This document shows, in pieces, positions 2 to 52,066 of a stretch of 64,000 nucleotides of DNA. A program made the translations under genes and the position numbers. Origin of the DNA: a bacterium 336/3. GTDB lineage: Bacteria > Bacteroidota > Bacteroidia > Cytophagales > Thermonemataceae. Positions within the stretch are counted from its first letter, which is position 1. Each line of letters starts with the position of its first letter. The notes below the pieces were generated by a model. It did not search any database. It was not told the DNA's origin and worked only from the letters and a program-made list of their open reading frames with translations. The stretch is taken from assembly GCA_001281695.1 (NCBI GenBank), contig LJIE01000001.1, forward strand, positions 2,370,586-2,434,585, given 5' to 3'.

Positions 2-277
2 GAAGCTATTTATATTAATTGTACGGTCTATGCTGCAAGTACACAGTTTTTCTTTAAATCTGTAGCTAAAGGAGATACCATCAATGTATCTGTGCTTGCT
101 CCTGAAGCCAGAATGCCAGAAGATAAGCTTATTTATGCTAAAATGCCTGAAAAAATGATAGATGATGATCCCAAATTGGAAGGATTACCAGGAGCTCATC
201 CAAAAATGGTAGGTAAAAAATTCAAAATCATTTATAATGATAAAGATGAAGTTACAGAAGTAAAACTTGCTCAATAA
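2..277 (+). CDS. C-terminal end of an unidentified protein (partial)
   Basis: The frame is already open at the left edge of the window and stops at 277, so only the last 91 residues are visible. The visible part is soluble, has no recognisable motif and ends in a Lys/Asp-rich beta-type tail. The next gene on the same strand starts 14 bases later, so the two are probably co-transcribed. I do not recognise the family, and the internal Met at base 92 is unlikely to be the true start because the frame stays open upstream of it. Confidence 0.6.
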   Translation, partial: EAIYINCTVYAASTQFFFKSVAKGDTINVSVLAPEARMPEDKLIYAKMPEKMIDDDPKLEGLPGAHPKMVGKKFKIIYNDKDEVTEVKLAQ

Positions 278-291
278 AAATTAATATAAAT

Positions 292-816
292 ATGCAAGCC
301 CAACCCAAATATGCTTCTTTAACTCAACAAGAGATAAAGTTTTTGAAAAAAGGAAGAGAGGAAGGGCTTTGGTTGATTATAATACTCGTTTTGGCTAGCA
401 TTCTTACCAAATATTTATTTTCTCATATTCCAAATGCTGAGAAAATAAACAACAGTTGGCTGATTCTTGCACTTCTTTTGGTTGGAATTGCTTTGCTTGC
501 AGGAATTTATTATGGAATAAAACGTTATCTCAACTATCAATTAGACATCAGAACAGGGCAAAAAATTTGTATATCAGGTATCATAGAAGATAAATTTAGC
601 TCAACAGGCAAGAATGCTACATATTACTTTGTGGTAATCGTTGGTCAAAAATTTAAAATCCCTAATGATATAGAACAAATGAATTATGATTTAAGGGTTG
701 ATTTTGTTCAGAAAGGAGATAATGCAACCATTTGGTTTTCACCCAAAACAAAAACAGTGTTTTGGGTAGCAAATCAAGTTTTTCTTGATTTAGAACGTAT
801 AACAGAAAACTTATAA
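292..816 (+). CDS. small two-helix membrane protein, unknown function
   Basis: A 174-residue protein with two hydrophobic segments at about residues 26-47 and 55-76. A roughly 90-residue soluble C-terminal domain follows, rich in beta-type sequence. It starts 14 bases after the preceding partial gene and probably shares its transcript. There is no signal peptide, catalytic motif or Cys cluster. It converges on the next gene with only nine bases between the stop codons. I do not recognise the family. Confidence 0.65.
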   Translation: MQAQPKYASLTQQEIKFLKKGREEGLWLIIILVLASILTKYLFSHIPNAEKINNSWLILALLLVGIALLAGIYYGIKRYLNYQLDIRTGQKICISGIIEDKFSSTGKNATYYFVVIVGQKFKIPNDIEQMNYDLRVDFVQKGDNATIWFSPKTKTVFWVANQVFLDLERITENL

Positions 817-825
817 ATTTTCAAA

Positions 826-1131
826 TTACTTTTTTTGCCAAAAAAATAATCTCCCAAAAAGTTTGTTCACAAACATCCAAAAGAAACGAAATTGCCCAAA
901 AATAAATCCATAGCCAAGCAAAATGATATTGTAGAGTGGCAAAATCAGCACAATCCATGTAAGGATTTTTATCCATGTAGGAGTTTGTTCATTATAGCCT
1001 AATATTGCATAAATAGGCTTTTTAACAAATAAAATAGTAAAGCCAGTACAAGCAAATACACATAAAATAAGGAGTACCTGCCAAATGCTGTGTACTCCCC
1101 AACGATTTTTTAATTTTTCAAGCCAATTCAT
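826..1131 (-). CDS. DUF6787-like small membrane protein
   Basis: A 101-residue protein with an amphipathic Lys/Arg-rich start (MNWLEKLKNRWGV) and two hydrophobic stretches at about residues 17-37 and 52-80, ending in a basic tail. The opening KLKNRWGV followed by a membrane helix matches my recollection of the DUF6787 proteins of Bacteroidota. Some databases mislabel these as prolipoprotein diacylglyceryl transferase, but it lacks that enzyme's size and motifs. It lies just downstream of the bactofilin gene on the same strand, so a link to the envelope or cytoskeleton is an inference from position. No function is known to me. Confidence 0.65.
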   Translation of the reverse strand: MNWLEKLKNRWGVHSIWQVLLILCVFACTGFTILFVKKPIYAILGYNEQTPTWIKILTWIVLILPLYNIILLGYGFIFGQFRFFWMFVNKLFGRLFFWQKK

Positions 1132-1142
1132 CTAATGGATAA

Positions 1143-1661
1143 TTAGATTTTTAAATCACTAAATACAGAGTTATTGGTGGCTTTTTCTTCTTTGGTCTCA
1201 ACAGAAGATTCTGTTTTTACGTCTACTGTTACTTCCTGATTAGAGGTAGAGTTAGATGAGTTTTTCTTTTTGATTTGATCTAGATCACCCATTTGACATT
1301 TACCGTTAAATACTGCTCCTGCTTCTACAACCATTTTAGATGTAAGAATATCACCATGTATAATTGCTGTAGATTTTAATACCAAAAGTTCAGTTACTTC
1401 CAATGAGCCTTTTACTTCTCCTTCTATTTCAGCATTTTGAGCAGTAATACAACCTTCAACCACAGAAGCATTTCCAGTAGCTACTTTCGATTTACTTTTG
1501 ATATCTCCAACTAATTTACCATCTATGCGTACGTTACCAAATGTATCAATATTTCCTTGTAAAGTGGCACCTTTGCCAATATTAGTACTTGCATTAGAGA
1601 TTTTATCTACATCCTGTTGTTTGGTCTCCTTAGTGTTGTTGTTACTTCCGAACATTGCCAT
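1143..1661 (-). CDS. bactofilin (polymer-forming cytoskeletal protein)
   Basis: A 172-residue protein with the bactofilin core at about residues 20-125. The core is a right-handed beta-helix of short repeats with alternating Ile/Val and Gly, for example IGKGATLQGNI, RIDGKLVGDI and GEVKGSLEV. Polar, low-complexity tails flank it. Bactofilins polymerise into cytosolic or membrane-bound filaments that organise cell-wall enzymes. Here the gene follows an M23 peptidase by 47 bases on the same strand, a pairing common in bacteria where the bactofilin scaffolds the peptidase. The Ser/Thr/Asn-rich C-terminal tail is typical and probably disordered. Confidence 0.92.
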   Translation of the reverse strand: MAMFGSNNNTKETKQQDVDKISNASTNIGKGATLQGNIDTFGNVRIDGKLVGDIKSKSKVATGNASVVEGCITAQNAEIEGEVKGSLEVTELLVLKSTAIIHGDILTSKMVVEAGAVFNGKCQMGDLDQIKKKNSSNSTSNQEVTVDVKTESSVETKEEKATNNSVFSDLKI

Positions 1662-1708
1662 AATTAGGTAGTTTTAATAGGTTGCGAAGCAATTTAAAAA
1701 TATTTGAG

Positions 1709-2578
1709 TTAAAAAGAAACAAATTTTTCAGGATTTACAGCATTGCCCTTGTACCACATCTCAAAATGTAAGTGAGGACCTGATGAAAGCCGGCCTGTAT
1801 TACCTATAATGGCAATCACATCGCCAGCCTTTACAAAATCACCTTGTTTTTTCAATAAAACGGCATTATGCTTATAAAAACTGATAACATTTCCTTGATG
1901 TTGAACGCCAATGACGTTGCCTGTGTCTTCTGTCCACGAAGAAAAAATAATTGTTCCATCTGCAACAGCTTTGATAGGTTCATTGGCTTGTGCTACCAAG
2001 TCAATGCCTAAATGCTTCGTTTTTGAATCGAAGCGTTCTGTAATAACTCCTTTGATAGGAGGAAAAAACGAAAAATCCTTAAAAGATATATCAAAAGTAC
2101 CAGTAGATTTTTCAGAATTTAAACTAATATTCATAGACTCATACTCTTTTCTTAAATTCATATCAGCAGGAGCAATATAATCCTTGATAGTATCTGTTTG
2201 AGTTACCTGATTTTTAGAAATATGAGAAGTATCAGTTCGCAATTCATTTACATCTGCTTTGATAGCCTTTTTGAAATTATCATAAAAACGATTATACTGA
2301 TTAGTAACCTCTATCAATGAGTCTACAGTACCAGAAAGCATTAAAACTTGCTTTTTTAGTTTTACTTCATCAGATTTTTGAGCAATAGGAGAGGAACTAC
2401 TAGAAGAACCTAGCCAAAAACCCAATACCAACATCAAAAATAGAATAGGTACACTAATAGCCAAGGCTTTTGCATGATTGTAAGAGAAATTACGTTTCTC
2501 TTCAAAATTTTCCTCATCGCGTACTAAAATTTCGTAACGATGCGTCAGCCAAGAAGATATGGTTTCTTTTATTTTCAT
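1709..2578 (-). CDS. membrane-anchored M23 (LytM-like) endopeptidase
   Basis: A predicted peptidoglycan DD-endopeptidase of 289 residues. There is a basic cytosolic start, one transmembrane helix at about residues 38-57, a linker and a C-terminal M23 domain. The zinc ligands are visible as HLGID and GPHLHFE, and the catalytic-His segment reads YKHN. The ATG at 2578 is preferred over one 33 bases upstream because a Bacteroidota promoter lies between them and the upstream codon falls inside it. It heads a minus-strand operon with bactofilin and a DUF6787 protein, so it probably remodels the wall at sites set by the bactofilin. It is divergent from the PASTA-protein gene. Confidence 0.92.
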   Translation of the reverse strand: MKIKETISSWLTHRYEILVRDEENFEEKRNFSYNHAKALAISVPILFLMLVLGFWLGSSSSSSPIAQKSDEVKLKKQVLMLSGTVDSLIEVTNQYNRFYDNFKKAIKADVNELRTDTSHISKNQVTQTDTIKDYIAPADMNLRKEYESMNISLNSEKSTGTFDISFKDFSFFPPIKGVITERFDSKTKHLGIDLVAQANEPIKAVADGTIIFSSWTEDTGNVIGVQHQGNVISFYKHNAVLLKKQGDFVKAGDVIAIIGNTGRLSSGPHLHFEMWYKGNAVNPEKFVSF

Positions 2579-2582
2579 GGTG

Positions 2583-2612
2583 CAAAGATAGTGTTTTTTA
2601 CGCAAAATCAAA
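2583..2612 (-). promoter_or_regulatory. Bacteroidota sigma-A-type promoter for the M23-bactofilin operon
   Basis: On the minus strand, TTTG (2612-2609) and TATCTTTG (2590-2583) are separated by 18 bases. This is close to the known Bacteroidetes consensus TTTG-N19-21-TAnnTTTG. Transcription would start almost at the chosen ATG (2578), giving a very short or absent leader. Confidence 0.6.
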
Positions 2613-2631
2613 AAAATAGGTTACAACGTAT

Positions 2632-2660
2632 TATTTTTGCCCGATTTTTGCATAAGTTTG
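2632..2660 (+). promoter_or_regulatory. candidate -7 elements for the PASTA gene
   Basis: Two matches to TAnnTTTG occur upstream of the ATG at 2684: TATTTTTG (2632-2639) and TAAGTTTG (2653-2660). Neither has a convincing -33 TTTG at the right distance. They lie back to back with the minus-strand promoter, so this roughly 100-base gap is a divergent control region. Confidence 0.4.
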
Positions 2661-2683
2661 CACTGAAAAAGTTAATATCATTT

Positions 2684-3634
2684 ATGAGCGTTGTTATTCG
2701 TAGTAATTCTTTCCCCCAAGTACTCATTCATATAGGTATTGTAGTACTTATTTTCGCTACTATACTTTTATTTGTATTTTATAATTATCTGCCTTTTGTA
2801 ACCAATCATGGTGAATCTATTACTGTACCAAGTTTGGTGGGAGTAAGTGTAGAGAATATTGAAGGAAAACTCAAAGAGGCAGGTTTTGAAATGGTGGTTC
2901 AAGATACTATCTATTCAAAAGAATATCAGCCTTATACAATTATAGACCAAAAACCTGTTGCAGGAACGAAAGTAAAACAAGGTAGAAAAATTTATCTGAT
3001 TATCAGCCCTAAAGCTCCTCCAAAGGTAAAAATGCCTAAACTAGAAGGGCTTTCTTACCAAATGGCAATTGCTAAAATTAAAACCATGCAGTTGGAAGTT
3101 GGAGCTATTCGCTTCAAACCAGATATAGCCAAAGATGCCATTTTAGGTCAAGAAATGAATGGCAGACCCATCAAAGAAAATGAACTCATACAAGTAGGAA
3201 CAAGCATTGATTTAGTAGTAGGGAGTGGTGTAGGTGATGAAGAAATGGATATGCCCGATTTAGAAGGTTTAAGTTTAGAAGATGCCAAAAGTATTTTAGA
3301 AACCAATGGTTTGCAACTTGGGCATGTTACTGAAGACCCTAACGCCAATGAACCAGCAGGCGTGGTAACCAAACAAAGCCCACCAGCAAGACTTGAAGCA
3401 GATGGGATTCCATACTATGATGAAGAAGGAAAAGCCCTCACTAAAAAACAAAGAGATGAGTTAAAACGAAAAAAACAAGCTCTCAATCCAGATGCACAGA
3501 ATCAACCGAAAAAGAGGTATGGCAAAGATGAGTTTGACCCACGTCCAAGAAATAAAATAAGAGCAGGTGAGATAGTAGATTTAACAGTTTCTGCTAATCG
3601 AAATGCAAAACCTAATGAAGAAGAAAAAAAATAA
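2684..3634 (+). CDS. PASTA-domain membrane protein
   Basis: A 316-residue protein with one N-terminal transmembrane helix (about 12-34) followed by extracytoplasmic PASTA domains at about 46-110, 115-184 and 190 to the end. The repeated motif is VPSLVGVS, MPKLEGLS or MPDLEGLS. PASTA domains bind muropeptides or lipid II. Here they sit without a kinase or transpeptidase domain, as is usual for stand-alone PASTA proteins of Bacteroidota. The third domain is interrupted by about 60 charged Lys/Asp/Pro-rich residues. The start at 2684 was chosen because the frame upstream encodes a basic, non-conserved stretch overlapping the M23 promoter. It is divergent from the peptidase and probably also involved in the wall. 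Confidence 0.85.
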   Translation: MSVVIRSNSFPQVLIHIGIVVLIFATILLFVFYNYLPFVTNHGESITVPSLVGVSVENIEGKLKEAGFEMVVQDTIYSKEYQPYTIIDQKPVAGTKVKQGRKIYLIISPKAPPKVKMPKLEGLSYQMAIAKIKTMQLEVGAIRFKPDIAKDAILGQEMNGRPIKENELIQVGTSIDLVVGSGVGDEEMDMPDLEGLSLEDAKSILETNGLQLGHVTEDPNANEPAGVVTKQSPPARLEADGIPYYDEEGKALTKKQRDELKRKKQALNPDAQNQPKKRYGKDEFDPRPRNKIRAGEIVDLTVSANRNAKPNEEEKK

Positions 3635-3640
3635 ATTACA

Positions 3641-3676
3641 AATAAGCCCTGATTTTTAGGGCTTATTTTTTTTTTG
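3641..3676 (+). terminator. rho-independent terminator
   Basis: A ten-base stem (AATAAGCCCT / AGGGCTTATT) with a short loop is followed by a run of T. It lies directly after the PASTA gene stop. Confidence 0.9.
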
Positions 3677-3810
3677 TTTAAAATGAAATTTTTATAGAAT
3701 CATATTTTGTAAAATTGAAAATAAGCAAAAAAAAAGGTTACCTTTTATATACTTTACAGAATCTACCTAATAGATACATTATTTAAGATACCTGAAATTT
3801 ATATAATACC

Positions 3811-4119
3811 ATGAAAAAAGCATATTGGTTATCCCTTATTTTACTTGGGAGCTGTTTGTATGCATCTGCTCAAACAACTCAAAACCCTAACTGGATAGAA
3901 TCTCCTCAAAAAGAATCCCCAAGATTTCAAATCCCTGCAAGTAACACATATCAAATTGTCAAAAATGAAACAGGCAAACCAGTTTCTGATGATGTATTGA
4001 AAAGTATTCATCGCAGAAGACAAACCAATGATGATATTATTTGGAAAGTAAGCCCTGATTTAGAAATATTAGTTTATAGTAAAAAAAGATCGCTTTTAAC
4101 TATAAAAAAGACTCAATAA
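3811..4119 (+). CDS. small secreted protein, unknown
   Basis: A 102-residue protein with a classic signal peptide: MKK start, hydrophobic core to about residue 18, cleavage after SAQ. The mature part is about 80 residues, polar and basic, without Cys or a known motif. It lies 32 bases upstream of the large T9SS protein on the same strand, so co-transcription is likely. The family is not recognised. I see no clear promoter in the 176-base gap before it beyond the preceding terminator and AT-rich tracts. Confidence 0.6.
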   Translation: MKKAYWLSLILLGSCLYASAQTTQNPNWIESPQKESPRFQIPASNTYQIVKNETGKPVSDDVLKSIHRRRQTNDDIIWKVSPDLEILVYSKKRSLLTIKKTQ

Positions 4120-4151
4120 GAAGTATTTAGGATACATAAAATATAAAAAAC

Positions 4152-7100
4152 ATGAAAAAGTATATTCATTTTTTAATAATATTAATCTTTTCTAGTATCG
4201 AAACTTATGCTCAGAGTACATTTACAGAAGGATTAGGTGGTGGAAGTGCTATTCAAGGCAGAAGATGGCACAGAAATGGTAACTGGACACCAAGTGGAGA
4301 ACCTGTAGCGGGCACCAATGCTATTATTGGTACTGGAACATGTAATGTAGAACAAAATGATGATGTTTGTAATAACCTGACTGTTAATGCTGGTACAACC
4401 CTCAATATTACAAATGGATCACAACTTACTGTGAACGGAAATTTAACAGTGAGTGGTACGCTCAATATCAATACAGGTGGAGCACTTAGTGTAACAGGCA
4501 ATATTACCATCAATGTTGGAGGAATTATTTCTGATAACAGAGTGGGTTCTGGTACTTTTGCTATGGGAGGAACTAGCATTACCAACAATGGAGGCCTACA
4601 TCAACCAGGGGATTTATTCGCAAACCTTACAAATGCTGGTACGGTAACTATCTCTGGTACAAGCACAGATTTCAATAATTTTGCTTTTAATTTGATAACA
4701 GCAGGGCAAATAGTTAATTTCAATGCCAGTACAACAAATGTATATGGTTTTTCTACAGATACAAATACAACACTTAATTTTGGCATAGGGCAATCTATCA
4801 ATATGACACAACTTTCTATTGAAGGAAATGCTAATTTCAATAATGCAAACCTTACTTTGAGAGGTGGTACAACAAGCAATGTAAGCCCTGATTTATATAA
4901 TCCATATTTCCCTACTGGACAAGCAGGTGAAGGAACAGTGAACGCTGGGACAAGTACATTTATTTATAGTGCTAATGCTACACAATTCATACGTTCTGGT
5001 AATTATCATAACCTTACTATACAAAATTATAGTGGAATTTCCAAAGATATAGGGAATGCTTCTTACACAGACGCTAATGGTCAGGGTATGGATGTGAATG
5101 TAAGCAATGATTTAACTTTAGATGTAAACTCTTCTGGTGGAGAAAGCTGGGTATTTAATACTGTAAATATTGGCAGACATTTTAATATGGCAACCAATAA
5201 TGTAGCATTCTCTATGGATTTAATTACAACTAGACTCATGCAAAGAACAGGGGGAATGGGGAATTTTACCATGGGAAATAATACTAACAATAGAATATTT
5301 GTAGGCTATACACATGCTACCAATACCTTTTTACAAGGTTATGGTAATGCCAATACATTTTTTGGAACAGTGATTTATCAAGGAGTATCAGGAACACAGA
5401 AGGTAGTGGGTGCTACTTATACCAATTTAAACCTACAAAATGGAGCAACCAGAGAACTTAACTCAAATGTACTCATCAATGGGAACTTAAACCACTTAGG
5501 AGGCAGTTTTGATGCGACAACATCTAACTTTAACATAGAATCTCAAGGGGACTGGACTCAATCTGCGGGGGCTTTTAATGCTAGAAACAATACAGTTTCT
5601 TTTACAGGAAATGTAAACCAGATACTTTCTACTATACCAAATGTAAATACTAACAGTTTTTCCAATACACCAGGAACACCAGTGGCTATTGCTGATGATA
5701 CACCTACTGGTGGGGTTGTTGCTAATAATACAGTCCCAACTTTGGCGTCTTTAGCAGGAAGTGCAAATATACAAGTAACAGTTCCTGTTGGTACTTATAT
5801 AGCTCTCAATAGCTTTAATTTTGATATTACACATACTTTTGATTCAGATGTAGATATATATTTGGTAACTCCTAATAATACAGTATATGTTGTTTCTACA
5901 GATAATGGTGGGGGTGGAGGAAATTACACCAACACTATTATACAAGATGGGGCAACACTTATTAGTACTGGTACAGCACCTTTTTCAGGTACATTTGCTT
6001 GGGAAGATGCAAGAACCTTGGCTTCTTATGCTGGACCATTAAATGGAACATGGACTTTGTATGTGGTAGATGATGCGTTTTTTGATACAGGAACAATTAA
6101 TAGTTTTGGTGTAACACTTTCAGCATCCACAAACCCTTTTACCTTAAATAATACAACTTTTAATAAAACGGGTAATTTGATACTTGCAGGGACAAGTACA
6201 TCTATCAATATCAATGGTATGATTGATTTTACAAATGGTTATTTGGTTGCAGGTTCTCAGAGAGTAGATTTTATGGCTACCTCAAACACAATCAACGCTT
6301 CCAATGCAAGCCACATGACAGGTACAGCTAGAAAAATAGGTAATACTAATTTTATATTTCCGTTGGGTAATGGTACTTATTATGCAGGGATAGGTTTCAA
6401 TCCAAGTGGTACAACAACAGCTACTGATCATTTTACAGTTACCTATACACGCACAAGCCCTAATACTTTGTATCCTATAGCAACCAAAGAAGCATCTATT
6501 GACCATGTAAGCAATTGTGAATATTGGATGTTTGACAGAACCAATGGAAGCCAAAGTGCTACTGTAAGCCTCCATTATGATAATGTTCGTAGTTGTGGAG
6601 TAACGGATCCTTCAGAGTTATTGGTATGTCGTTGGGATGGAACACAATGGACAAATGGAGGAAATGGTGGTGTAGCAAGTTCTTTTGTAACAAGTGCTGT
6701 TACCTTTACATCCTTTAGCCCTATTACATTAGGAAGTACCACAAGTAATAATCCTTTGCCTGTTGGAATGGTTTATTTTAAAGCAAGTAAATCCAATTCA
6801 GATGCTCTTTTAGAGTGGAAAACAGAATTTGAGTTAAATAGTAAAATATTTAGTGTTGAGCGTTCATTCAATGCTAAAGAATTTGAAGAAATAGGTACTA
6901 TAGAGGCGATAGGTAAAGCTAACACTTATAATTTTACAGATAAAGCTATAAGCCAACAAACTTCAATAGCTTATTATAGACTCAAAAACATAGATAAAGA
7001 TGGTAAATATATTTATAGTAAGCCACAGGCTGTCAATTTTGATGTTAATGAATTCAATATTGTAAATGTTCAGCCTAATCCTATACAAAAAGAGTTTAAA

Positions 7101-48243: not shown

Positions 48244-49113
48244 ATGAACTTAAAAGAACTTATTATTAATTTTGCTCCAACGGGTAATGTTCCAACATCC
48301 AAAAACTCTCCATACATACCCATTAGCCCCAGCCAGATTATTGAAGAAGTGATAGAAGCCTATGAACTGGGCATTACACTTGTTCATTTACATGCCAGAG
48401 AAGAAGACGAAAGTCCAAGTTGTAAAGCAAGTATCTACAGTGTTATTTTAGAGGGTATCCGTAAATACTGTCAAGATATGGTATTGGGAGTGTCTTTAAG
48501 TGGAAGAAACTTCCCTGAAATAGAGAAAAGAACAGAGGTCTTGAGCTTAAAGCCTGATATGGCTTCCTTGACACTCAGTTCACTGAATTTTAAAAATCAG
48601 GCAAGTTTAAATGAACCAGAAACCATCAATATCCTTGCAGAGAAAATACAGGCTTGTGGTGCAACACCCGAACTAGAGTGTTTTGATGCTGGTATGCTCA
48701 ATTATGCACTTTATCTGATTCAGAAAGGAAAAATAAGGCCTCCTTTTTACTTCAATCTCATTACTGGTAATATCTTTGGGATGCCCAATGACATGGCTCA
48801 TATTGGTACTTTCATCAAAGATTTACCAAAAGAATCAGTTTGGGCATTGGGTGGAATAGGAGACTTTCAACTGGCTGCCAATAGTTATGCCATTACAGCA
48901 GGAGGAGGAGTAAGAGTAGGTTTGGAAGATAACATTTGGTATAATGCCAAACGTACTCAGTATGCTACTAATATAGATTTAATCAAACGCATACATACAC
49001 TAGCCGAAATTCATGAAAGACCTATTATGAAACCTGCAACATTTGGAAAAATGGGTTTCTTTAATAAGAACAGGGTTTTTATGAAGAATGATATTTTAAA
49101 AGAGGCTGTATAA
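48244..49113 (+). CDS. beta-keto acid cleavage enzyme (BKACE / Kce-like, DUF849)
   Basis: A 289-residue TIM-barrel protein of the BKACE family. Motifs are TGNVPTSKNSPYIPISPSQI, the zinc ligands His48 and His50 in VHLHARE, ELECFDAGML (about 143-152) and GGGVRVGLEDNIW with Glu228. Known BKACEs condense a beta-keto acid with acetyl-CoA to give acetoacetate and a new acyl-CoA; Kce acts on 3-keto-5-aminohexanoate in lysine fermentation. No other lysine-fermentation genes are nearby, so the substrate is probably different. It is the first of four tightly coupled genes; its stop overlaps the next start by one base. Confidence 0.88.
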   Translation: MNLKELIINFAPTGNVPTSKNSPYIPISPSQIIEEVIEAYELGITLVHLHAREEDESPSCKASIYSVILEGIRKYCQDMVLGVSLSGRNFPEIEKRTEVLSLKPDMASLTLSSLNFKNQASLNEPETINILAEKIQACGATPELECFDAGMLNYALYLIQKGKIRPPFYFNLITGNIFGMPNDMAHIGTFIKDLPKESVWALGGIGDFQLAANSYAITAGGGVRVGLEDNIWYNAKRTQYATNIDLIKRIHTLAEIHERPIMKPATFGKMGFFNKNRVFMKNDILKEAV

Positions 49114-49766
49114 TGATGGATAAAATAGATATTTTAGGGGCTAGTATTGATACATTATCCATGATTTTTGAAATACTAGCCCATCAAATCAATATTCCAC
49201 AGGTCAGAATTGTTCAGAATACTTCACATGCTTTGGATGGAGATTTTCTCCATCCAAAAGTTTCTTATACAAGTGTTCATGTAGAAAATATTGAAAATAG
49301 GCTTTTTGATAAAGTAATTTTAGGTGTTTATCAGGTAAAAACCAAATATGCTGTCTGGAATAGTTTTTTAGAACGATTTCCAAATTTAGAACAGCATTTA
49401 TGTAATATTCTACACCCTCAAAATGCCATTGCCGAAACTGTAAGTCTTGATAAAGGCATACAAATCAATCCGTTTGTGGTGATAGCTCCTTATGCTAAAA
49501 TTGGAAAATGTGTGTCTATCAACAGACAAGTAAGTATTGGACATCATACATCTATCAGTGATTTTAGTACCATTAACCCTGGAGTAAATATCGCAGGGCA
49601 TTGCGAAATAGCCGAAGGTGTTACAGTGGGGATGGGAACAAATATTATAGAAGGAGTAAAAATAGGTAAAAATAGTATAGTTGGTGCGGGTTCACTAGTT
49701 TTAAAAGATATACCCGAAAATGTATTGGCTCTTGGAAGTCCTGCAAAAATTATAAAAGAATTATGA
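49113..49766 (+). CDS. NeuD/PglD-like left-handed beta-helix acyltransferase
   Basis: A 217-residue protein with a short N-terminal nucleotide-type domain (MDKIDILGAS) and a C-terminal left-handed beta-helix of hexapeptide repeats (about 105-210, e.g. VSIGHHTSISDFSTI, VTVGMGTNIIEGVKI), ending LGSPAKIIKEL. This is the shape of sugar O/N-acetyltransferases such as NeuD and PglD. The His in SIGHH fits the PglD catalytic base position. It shares a base with the BKACE stop and overlaps the aminotransferase start by four bases. The acyl donor may be the BKACE product (inference). Confidence 0.85.
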   Translation: MMDKIDILGASIDTLSMIFEILAHQINIPQVRIVQNTSHALDGDFLHPKVSYTSVHVENIENRLFDKVILGVYQVKTKYAVWNSFLERFPNLEQHLCNILHPQNAIAETVSLDKGIQINPFVVIAPYAKIGKCVSINRQVSIGHHTSISDFSTINPGVNIAGHCEIAEGVTVGMGTNIIEGVKIGKNSIVGAGSLVLKDIPENVLALGSPAKIIKEL

Positions 49767-50869
49767 TTTCAGTTTTTGGAAGTAAATTTACAGAAGAAGA
49801 AGCAGAGTCTGTGAAACAGGTTCTGCTTTCGCAGTGGGCAGGTATGGGTAAAAAAGTAGCTGAATTTGAGCAAGAATTGGCTCAAAAAAGGCATTTGCCC
49901 AATATGTTACTGGTCGATTCAGGTTCAAATGCGTTATATCTAGCTATTACGTTACTCAATTTGCCACCAAATTCGGAAATAATTTTGCCCAGTTTTACTT
50001 GGGTGGCATGTGCTCAAGCAGTTCTATTAGCAGGACACACGCCAGTATTCTGTGATGTGGATATACAAACACAAAATGTAACAGTAGAAACCATTTTGCC
50101 ACATATTACGCCTCAGACAAAGGCAATTATGGTGGTGCATTATGCAGGCAAACCAGTAGATATGAATCCTATTTTAGCATTAGGGTTTCCTGTCATAGAA
50201 GATGCAGCCCATGCCATTCATTCCAATTATCATGGAAAAGCATGTGGAACAATAGGAGAAATAGGCGTTTTTAGTTTTGATTCCATTAAAAATCTTGCAA
50301 TGGGTGAGGGTGGAGGAATAACTACCCAAAATGAAGCCTATCTTGCAAGAGCTAAAAAACTGAGATATTGTGGTATTGAAAAATCTGGTTTTCAGCAGTC
50401 ACAAGCTCAACAAAGTCAAAATAAGTGGTGGGAATATCACATTTCGGAAGTGTTTATCAAAATGTTACCCACTGATTTAGAAGCTTCTATAGCTTTGGTT
50501 CAATTGCAAAAAATGGAAAAATACCAAACTATCAGAAAAAATATTTGGGATACTTATCAAAAAGCTTTTGAAAATATAGACTGGATAGCCCGTCCACAAG
50601 ATTCAGAATTACATGAACAGCATTCTTATTTTACGTATTTTATCAGAACACCCTTTAGAAATGAATTAGCACAATATTTATTGGATAAAAAAATTTACAC
50701 AACACTTCGTTACCATCCTTTGCATCTCAATGCTTTGTATCAGAGTACAAAAGTACTTCCTAATAGTGAACAACTCAATGAACAAGGCTTAAACTTACCT
50801 TTGCATCCTAACCTTTCTGAAACAGATGTTTCATACATTATTGATTGTATCACGAAATTTAAAAAATAG
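49763..50869 (+). CDS. DegT/DnrJ/EryC1/StrS-family sugar aminotransferase
   Basis: A 368-residue PLP-dependent aminotransferase. The Schiff-base lysine is Lys176 in SFDSIKNLAMGEGG, and Asp147 in VIEDAAHAIHS fits the cofactor site. Family members put an amino group on keto-sugar nucleotides. No dehydratase or epimerase gene that would make the keto-sugar is in this window. It overlaps the acyltransferase by four bases and the next gene by one base. Confidence 0.92.
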   Translation: MISVFGSKFTEEEAESVKQVLLSQWAGMGKKVAEFEQELAQKRHLPNMLLVDSGSNALYLAITLLNLPPNSEIILPSFTWVACAQAVLLAGHTPVFCDVDIQTQNVTVETILPHITPQTKAIMVVHYAGKPVDMNPILALGFPVIEDAAHAIHSNYHGKACGTIGEIGVFSFDSIKNLAMGEGGGITTQNEAYLARAKKLRYCGIEKSGFQQSQAQQSQNKWWEYHISEVFIKMLPTDLEASIALVQLQKMEKYQTIRKNIWDTYQKAFENIDWIARPQDSELHEQHSYFTYFIRTPFRNELAQYLLDKKIYTTLRYHPLHLNALYQSTKVLPNSEQLNEQGLNLPLHPNLSETDVSYIIDCITKFKK

Positions 50870-52035
50870 TGCTTGATTTACCCAAAATCCCCTTGAGTCA
50901 AGGTAGTTTGATAGAAGTGTATCAGCCTGATATTGATTTCTTTATCCAAAAACTACAGAAAAGAGAATATTTTGCTTTTACAAGACAATTGCATGGACTC
51001 TGGGATTCTGTCATTGGGGCATGGATTTTAGATGCAAGTTTGCGAAAAATAGAATTAGAAGATGAAAATTATCTTTGGAAACTGGCTCAAACCATGTCAA
51101 AGGGTAAAGAAGCCATAGAAGGACTTTATTATCCTCCAAAACTTTATATGGAATTGCTTCAAATTCTGAAAAATTTAGAACAAACACCTGAAAACTTCTT
51201 TTTTGGAATAGGAGATACCTATTTTTATCCTGAACAAACACCACCATACCATTACAATCATTATACTTTGCCTTTTAAATGTTCTTTTAAATACTTACCA
51301 ACATCTAATCAATTGAAATTCTATAAGTTAAGATTTGGGGACAGGCAAGAAGTGATGCAATATATTTTACCTAAAAATAAAACGTTTTTTGATGGGTTGA
51401 TTTGGAAACGATACACTTACTATAATCAAATTCAAGCTTTTTTTGAGGCTTTGAAGGAATTTCAGGTAATAGGCATAGCCCCCAAACACTATCATAATTT
51501 TGGAGAATTGGTAAAAATACCTGATTACACACATGTAGCCATTCATCATAACAAAGCCTCAGAGAATAGAGAGGAATTATTGGAGTATATTGTGGGTTTG
51601 CATGCTCAAAAAAAGAAGTTTGGAAAGCCCTGCTTATACTTTTTTGTGGCAGGTTCTTTGAGTGTATGGTTGGTGTATCATCTTCAAAAACGAATTCCAG
51701 ATGCCTTTTTAGTAGATATAGGTCAGGCTTTCAATTATTTGTACGATTCTAAAGAAGGACTTTTGCATAGAGAGTTTGGCTTGAGCCATCAAAACGACCA
51801 CAAACGAAAATCTGTGGATTCAAAAAAATGGTATGGAACGAAAGATTTAGGGTGTAAAATGCAAATTATTGATAATCAGGTTGTTTTTTCTTTTAAAGAC
51901 CATTTTTGGATGAATCTGCCTGAGAAAATATTGTTGCTAGTTCAAGAAAGGCTTATTAGACGAAAATTAATAGATTTTCGATATCAATTAAAACATAAAT
52001 TGATTAAAAGTCTGTTTGAAACAAAAAATACATAA
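50869..52035 (+). CDS. unknown protein, possible divergent GT-D-fold glycosyltransferase
   Basis: A 388-residue cytosolic protein starting at a GTG that shares its G with the TAG stop of the aminotransferase gene. The region about 198-300 (VIGIAPKHYHNFG, KPCLYFFVAGSLSVWLVYHL, DAFLVDIGQAFNYLYD) resembles the nucleotide-sugar half of GT-D (DUF1792) glycosyltransferases. However, the RFGDGE motif is not visible, and FTRQLHGLWDSV occupies the matching N-terminal place. Fold and role are tentative, supported by sugar-type neighbours. It is the last gene of the cassette and ends in a terminator. Confidence 0.6.
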   Translation: MLDLPKIPLSQGSLIEVYQPDIDFFIQKLQKREYFAFTRQLHGLWDSVIGAWILDASLRKIELEDENYLWKLAQTMSKGKEAIEGLYYPPKLYMELLQILKNLEQTPENFFFGIGDTYFYPEQTPPYHYNHYTLPFKCSFKYLPTSNQLKFYKLRFGDRQEVMQYILPKNKTFFDGLIWKRYTYYNQIQAFFEALKEFQVIGIAPKHYHNFGELVKIPDYTHVAIHHNKASENREELLEYIVGLHAQKKKFGKPCLYFFVAGSLSVWLVYHLQKRIPDAFLVDIGQAFNYLYDSKEGLLHREFGLSHQNDHKRKSVDSKKWYGTKDLGCKMQIIDNQVVFSFKDHFWMNLPEKILLLVQERLIRRKLIDFRYQLKHKLIKSLFETKNT

Positions 52036-52039
52036 AAAC

Positions 52040-52066
52040 AAAAAGCCTCATAATGAGGCTTTTTTA
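52040..52066. terminator. bidirectional terminator
   Basis: The palindrome AAAGCCTCAT-A-ATGAGGCTTT has A and T runs and closes the four-gene cassette against the convergent ferredoxin gene. Confidence 0.9.

Follow-up and report, generated by a model that had tools for sequence, protein, structure and literature searches.

The 64,000-nucleotide window analysed here comes from the bacterium 336/3 (Thermonemataceae; GenBank assembly GCA_001281695.1, contig LJIE01000001.1, positions 2,370,586 to 2,434,585 of the forward strand). At positions 48244-52035 of the window, four genes on the same strand overlap by 1, 4 and 1 bases. They encode a beta-keto acid cleavage enzyme (BKACE), a NeuD-like acyltransferase, a DegT-family aminotransferase and a protein without family match. 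The open reading frame (ORF) coordinates agree with the layout given in the first-pass annotation, which had been made from the letters of the DNA:

48244-49113, + strand: BKACE gene, 289 amino acids (aa), PF05853
49111-49115, + strand: TAATG in the sequence, 1-base overlap of the BKACE stop and the NeuD start
49113-49766, + strand: NeuD/PglD-like hexapeptide sugar N-acyltransferase gene, 217 aa, PF00132 and TIGR03570
49763-49766, + strand: ATGA in the sequence, 4-base overlap of NeuD and DegT
49763-50869, + strand: DegT/DnrJ/EryC1 aminotransferase gene of the pyridoxal phosphate (PLP)-dependent sugar type, 368 aa, PF01041
50867-50871, + strand: TAGTG in the sequence, 1-base overlap of the DegT stop and the GTG start of the fourth gene
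50869-52035, + strand: fourth gene, without family match, 388 aa, GTG start, possibly a GT-D/GT-E-like glycosyltransferase
52040-52064, strand-neutral: terminator-like palindrome after the fourth gene, listed on the - strand, lying between convergent genes, with a T run on the + strand too

Profile matches bore out the families that had been proposed for the first three genes. The BKACE matched PF05853 with E 3.1e-73 (246.9 bits, gathering score 24.8), and its closest solved chain is 3no5, an uncharacterised BKACE (E 2.1e-46). The second protein matched Hexapep PF00132 (E 4.9e-13) and, as its best NCBIfam model, NeuD_NnaD TIGR03570, at 138.1 bits and below the cut-off of 160.8. Three NeuD relatives from similar cassettes scored 138.3, 135.3 and 137.7 bits against that cut-off, and two further NeuDs in the genome of the window passed it (173.1 and 211.5 bits). 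The closest solved chain is the perosamine N-acetyltransferase 4ea7 (E 1.1e-16). A GHH motif is invariant in the 15 NeuDs that were aligned (15 of 24 relatives), and we take the conserved His of the GH motif to be catalytic. The protein resembles the NeuD/PglD/PerB/VioB N-acyltransferases in its hexapeptide repeats, in this motif and in having a closest solved chain that acts on an amino sugar; it differs from them in missing the family cut-off and in its partner, a putative dedicated acyl-CoA-making enzyme.

The aminotransferase matched PF01041 with E 3.3e-87 (293.5 bits, gathering score 19.8) and aligned over its full length with TlmJ (5uid, E 1.4e-69), the closest solved chain, and with ArnB (E 2.8e-48). 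Its K176 lines up with the Lys of both proteins, which is presumably the PLP lysine. It departs from the TlmJ, ArnB and perosamine synthase type in falling under the NCBIfam equivalog cut-offs considered. Identity is 32% to a paralogue in its own genome versus 55% to a phage-borne DegT (three compared), and close relatives (at least 54%) were met only beside BKACE-NeuD pairs, in phages and in G004, a genome from another genus of the same family. None of the four operon genes forms a keto sugar. Elsewhere in the genome, outside the window, are encoded the sugar dehydratases RmlB (466 bits, cut-off 365) and Gmd (591 bits, cut-off 415) and a PseB-like dehydratase narrowly under its curated cut-off, so the 4-keto sugar need not arise within the operon.

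In G004 all four genes recur in unchanged order on one strand. Their identities to the window genes are 62, 50, 62 and 48%, adjacent genes are parted or overlap by just a few bases, and the flanking genes are others. The first-pass annotation had named absence of this order from every relative as a refutation; the order is kept in at least this one. Chance grouping of the genes was rejected, since G004 repeats the order between other neighbours and the BKACE-NeuD pair occurs in 24 bacterial places and in phages. The idea of a four-gene unit stood in part: it holds for G004, but across the wider set the conserved unit is BKACE plus NeuD, with DegT and the fourth gene variable. Presence within the genus of the window is patchy, as a profile search found no BKACE in three other genomes of that genus.

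The linkage of BKACE to NeuD was followed at three taxonomic levels. Within the order, a profile built from two BKACEs and run on 390 genomes returned 29 places in 28 genomes, with a gap separating 20 strong matches (E up to 1.9e-81) from 9 weaker ones (E from 4.9e-49 upwards). Each of the 20 stronger places has a same-strand NeuD-like gene that adjoins the BKACE or lies one gene off (the copy at G626:C3 is a pseudogene), and none of the 9 ordinary BKACE places has a NeuD in the fetched flank of ~1.5 kb or less (for two of the nine, also across 7 kb). Within the phylum, a wider BKACE profile at E 1e-60 matched 15 of 395 genomes, 6 with NeuD adjoining or one gene off (two of them counted before), the other 9 having the BKACE in a frame 445-510 aa long; within the class, the BKACE profile matched 3 of 355 genomes and gave no new place. 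All 24 bacterial places with an unfused BKACE of this subclade have a same-strand NeuD gene no further than one gene away (23 intact). The pseudogene at L046 (G626:C3, 9440-10147) has two in-frame stops and GHR for GHH, and an intact second pair is present at C4.

Of the 9 long-frame sister BKACEs, 4 were examined and all 4 have an N-terminal GNAT domain, recognised by Pfam in one and by BLAST to that one in three; the remaining 5 were classed by length alone. These long-frame BKACEs (L062-L070) belong to genomes of family f37, and an ATP-grasp or ligase-like frame adjoins one of them. Because BKACE is coupled to two unrelated acyltransferase types, NeuD and GNAT, the acyl-CoA appears to be its useful product.

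The further neighbours of the bacterial pairs vary. Of the 24 places, 15 have a GT2 gene on the same strand beside the pair and 6 have a DegT-family gene within the stretch fetched (one is divergent, and two are short, at ~200 aa); the fourth gene of the window is found in 2. The most telling sugar context is L082, where FdtA (PF05523), DegT, NeuD, BKACE and GT2 genes run in one direction, with DegT and NeuD overlapping by 4 bases and NeuD and BKACE abutting. At L081 the order is BKACE-NeuD-GT2-miniDegT. The short DegT-family proteins of ~200 aa beside BKACE-NeuD (L054, 6615-7205; L081, 10152-10793; many viral loci) are without much of the aminotransferase. The BKACE/NeuD overlap also varies, from ~29-38 bases in L052-L054 and many phages, 23 in L051 and 29 in L081 to 1-4 in the window and several other bacteria; a shared origin of the long-overlap bacterial and phage pairs is possible from this pattern. 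Plasmid records matching two of the cassette BKACEs numbered 536 and 591, and the incomplete gene tables of the three that were inspected show no NeuD adjoining the BKACE.

The window BKACE keeps H48, H50, R224, E228 and D229. The corresponding CcaKce positions (H46, H48, R226, E230 and D231), which we take to be metal ligands and catalytic residues, are H, H, R, E and D in 48 of 48 aligned BKACE rows. These rows comprised 24 NeuD-linked, 9 long-frame and 2 flavin-cluster BKACEs and 13 others, including a pca-operon BKACE and four solved ones, and were used to build a tree. The NeuD-linked, long-frame and two flavin-cluster BKACEs form a superclade set apart from the ordinary BKACEs with support 100/98, within which the 9 long-frame sequences group together (100/97). 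The branch that parts the 24 NeuD-linked rows from the fused and ordinary ones has support 99/94 and also holds the flavin-cluster BKACE L004; the 24 by themselves have a support of just 86/31. Ser at the CcaKce Gly84 position followed by Gly-Arg, together with Ser-Leu-Thr at 106-108, marks 35 of 35 superclade rows and 0 of the 13 others, and the window protein has both (SxSGR and SLT). Arg88 was not diagnostic by itself as a mark of the clade, being also present in 3no5, 3chv, 3fa5 and the pca-operon BKACE. Compared with the BKACE/Kce family at large (PF05853, DUF849), the window clade shares the fold family, the metal-site His/His/Glu and the Arg and Asp positions, and differs in the Ser at Gly84, in the SLT, in a replaced Kce Glu14, and in having sugar acyltransferases rather than degradation genes as neighbours.

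These data bear on an alternative to which we give very little credence: that the BKACE sits beside sugar genes incidentally and serves the catabolism of beta-keto acids or the fermentation of lysine, the latter a possibility named in the first-pass annotation. Its best NCBIfam model is indeed Kce (NF052387), but the 211.4 bits obtained are far under the equivalog cut-off of 382, and the 198.9 bits obtained for 3-oxoadipate:acetyl-CoA acetyltransferase (NF053568) are likewise below the cut-off of 350. A single BKACE match was found in the genome; lysine 5,6-aminomutase (PF09043) had no match there, in a search to which the control genomes were equally silent. CcaKce Glu14, which presumably binds the substrate amine, is replaced by Val, Ile, Gln or Leu in all 24 NeuD-linked BKACEs of the 48-row alignment. 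The conserved sugar-gene linkage in bacteria and phages largely refutes the catabolic alternative. The replacement of Glu14, if its presumed role is right, also argues against a 3-amino-acyl product, one of the examples that the first-pass annotation had offered.

We believe that the operon is probably a compact pathway yielding an N-acylated amino sugar: the NeuD-like enzyme would put a non-acetyl acyl group from a BKACE-made acyl-CoA on a DegT-made amino sugar. The nucleotide 4-keto-6-deoxy sugar that DegT would aminate would come from RmlB, Gmd or the PseB-like protein, 4,6-dehydratases with genes elsewhere in the genome. From a beta-keto acid and acetyl-CoA, BKACE would produce acetoacetate together with a non-acetyl acyl-CoA, from which the NeuD-like enzyme would move the acyl group onto the sugar amine, and the fourth protein would probably transfer the acylated sugar to an acceptor. 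We infer each of these chemical steps, the direction of the BKACE reaction and the identities of acyl group, sugar and acceptor from gene content and context; the final acceptor would be a surface glycan in bacteria and a virion or host glycan in phages. The proposed BKACE step follows the reaction described for the family in PMC12871164, in which a beta-keto acid and acetyl-CoA yield acetoacetate and a shortened acyl-CoA. N-formyl is also possible as the acyl cap by analogy, since one BKACE produced formyl-CoA from malonate semialdehyde (PMC11961710).

Part of this scheme has a precedent within the Bacteroidota. For Flavobacterium psychrophilum, PMC6519341 presents a Qui2NAc4NR pathway (wfpC-G) with a PglD homologue that, by prediction, joins 3,5-dihydroxyhexanoyl to an amino sugar. 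The acyl group is predicted to come from a dedicated acyl carrier protein (ACP) pathway, in which ketoacyl-ACP synthases and a reductase would assemble it on the carrier. The two systems are alike in combining a PglD homologue with a dedicated acyl supply and, as predicted, a non-acetyl acyl group on a 4-amino sugar. They differ in that BKACE would supply an acyl-CoA in the window operon, which contains neither ACP nor synthase. A dedicated acyl supply for a PglD-type enzyme was thus already proposed, via ACP (PMC6519341), and the BKACE route is what differs. In the open-licence literature searched, PMC11961710, PMC12133276 and PMC12871164 among it, we found no description of a BKACE paired with a sugar acyltransferase or of such a BKACE in phages.

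Several points weigh against this reading. The window proteins miss the TIGR03570 cut-off and all of the DegT and BKACE equivalog cut-offs considered here. None of the cassettes contained a recognisable enzyme for making a beta-keto acid, the presumed BKACE substrate. The homologue BsfD (DUF849) performs a different chemistry, acetylating its substrate rather than cleaving it (PMC12871164). Two superclade BKACEs, L004 (9001-9870, Salmonella pRSE21) and L005 (7986-8840, Streptomyces camelliae plasmid), have no adjoining NeuD or GNAT annotated in an incomplete gene table, and one flavin-cluster BKACE falls among the NeuD-linked rows in both trees, the second being the one with viruses added. With BsfD differing in chemistry and flavin-cluster BKACEs inside the superclade, membership in it does not fix the reaction. 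The surroundings of L004 and L005 are of riboflavin type (RibA, riboflavin synthase and a methyltransferase, with rosB nearby in Streptomyces), which suggests a flavin-analogue pathway using BKACE.

It is accordingly conceivable, though in our view unlikely, that the BKACE is non-canonical, keeping its Claisen product as BsfD does or making a small keto compound, and that NeuD acts separately with acetyl-CoA. Besides BsfD itself, the riboflavin-type clusters speak for this, as the need for an acyl-CoA is not obvious there. Linkage or fusion to the unrelated NeuD and GNAT is nevertheless best explained by an acyl-CoA product, and the aligned BsfD has neither the Ser84 nor the SLT by which the superclade is marked. 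The exchange of Tyr145 for Phe discussed for BsfD was rejected as a sign of altered chemistry, as Phe occupies that position in 47 of 48 rows, ordinary BKACEs included.

The absence of a DegT-family gene from the fetched stretch of 18 of the 24 bacterial places also runs counter to a uniform amino-sugar route, and for this reason the acceptor may differ among cassettes. It is one of the observations that would fit an acylated amine other than a nucleotide sugar, namely an amino acid, a lipid or a small metabolite, with the cassette making a secreted small molecule. Many bacterial cassettes lie away from large polysaccharide loci (by eye), and PylC-like and sugar-transfer-associated ATP-grasp genes are found near four of them. 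We nonetheless regard a non-sugar amine as improbable, given the NeuD-type acyltransferase, the sugar-type DegT and the FdtA, Gmd and GT2 neighbours. The BKACE-NeuD pair at L050 furthermore adjoins frames at 252-6886, on the opposite strand, that resemble, by eye, CMP-nonulosonate and nonulosonate synthases, together with a GT2 gene.

The route to an N-acylated amino sugar draws further on viral contigs, which were scanned by BKACE alignment and clade motifs; NeuD linkage was not a criterion, and the scan is silent on how frequent ordinary viral BKACEs are. It gave 74 loci, of which L138 has no called BKACE frame and L166 and L167 hold ordinary BKACEs without NeuD, leaving 71 of the subclade. 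NeuD is near BKACE on the same strand in 68 of the 71, with none in the fetched stretch of L094, L095 and L126. A DegT or short DegT lies within 2.5 kb in 45, and a small glycosyltransferase-like gene, also found in bacterial L052-L054, is present in 29. At 90% identity the 71 loci reduce to 48 groups, 45 with NeuD, 26 with DegT or miniDegT and 20 with the small glycosyltransferase-like gene. With a full-length DegT, the order BKACE-NeuD-DegT-small glycosyltransferase-like gene was seen in five viral loci (2 of the 48 groups); a PhoH gene then follows in L127 (PHROGs), with a similar frame there in L108. L097 has the order Gmd-BKACE-miniDegT-NeuD, its Gmd-like gene directly upstream of BKACE scoring 395.3 bits (cut-off 415). 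The central claim of the first-pass annotation, that BKACE would supply acyl-CoA to an amino-sugar acyltransferase, is supported by the NeuD linkage (24/24 bacterial, 68/71 viral), by the GNAT-fused sister group (seen in all 4 examined out of 9) and by the L082 and L097 gene orders.

Among 91 other ORFs of at least 150 aa in 12 viral loci, glycosyltransferase, epimerase, methyltransferase and sulfotransferase families recurred beside PhoH, and an RNA ligase and a phage lysozyme were also present. Seven whole viral records (of the 74) were tested for phage hallmarks: a Gp23-type (T4-type) capsid gene was found in 5, a PF03237 terminase in 4 and neither in 2, with records of 291-336 kb among those that carry such genes. 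The 50,697 records of INPHARED phages gave no match to the window BKACE at E 1e-5. When viruses were added in a second tree, in which the bootstrap had not settled, 41 of 47 viral rows joined bacterial L052-L054 with support 100/100; of the other viral rows, one fell among other bacteria, three with L082 and the flavin BKACE L004, and two apart. The bacterial NeuD-linked rows were no longer a single group in this tree. As the viral rows fall at separate places, several transfers between bacteria and phages, in one or the other direction, are suggested. We find the case evenly balanced for a transferable acyl-sugar module (BKACE, NeuD, full or short DegT and a glycosyltransferase) that is passed around among large T4-like phages and the chromosomes of Bacteroidota. 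On this view, an enzyme encoded by the phages themselves would make the non-acetyl acyl-CoA, at least one phage would also bring its own GDP-mannose 4,6-dehydratase, and the product would be an acylated amino sugar destined for the virion or the host surface.

Bacterial and phage glycans bear many odd N-acyl groups of rarely known origin. If BKACE feeds sugar acyltransferases, it would be a new way of providing the acyl donors that diversify glycans and would give a function to a distinct clade within a largely degradative enzyme family; non-acetyl caps would become predictable in genomes from one marker gene. The occurrence of the BKACE-NeuD pair in uncultured phages, some with very large genomes, raises the question of whether they make their own acylated sugars for virions or host surfaces.

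The fourth protein had been called GT-D-like. Sequence comparison did not confirm that call, as no Pfam family, PF08759 included, matched even at E up to 10 (the HMMER filters drop most matches above ~0.1), and the predicted structures are suggestive only. Two low-confidence models from a two-sequence input (mean pLDDT 42.9 and 47.0) aligned in part to the DUF1792 GT-D chains 4pfx, 4phr and 5v4a with Z 6.2-6.8, at ranks 2, 4 and 5 in one model and 14, 17 and 18 in the other, and to TarA/TagA with Z 4.9-8.0, values that can reflect a common arrangement. A PTS domain was the top match of both models (Z 8.1 and 10.1), above the DUF1792 chains; unrelated chains score as high as or higher than these. 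Foldseek found no PDB match to the first model with an E of 0.001 or lower, and a PF08759 profile search of 59 genomes had no match, its 14 controls being silent too. We consider a glycosyltransferase plausible from the models. Homologues were found in 2 of 98 relatives, 1 of 395 phylum genomes and 2 of 291 order genomes, solely the window genome and G004; a contig scan with two short patterns returned only the G004 contig, which is weak evidence of rarity. The four genes have a GC content of 0.32-0.37, and both GC and GC3 are typical of the window; on this basis, a foreign origin by composition was rejected.

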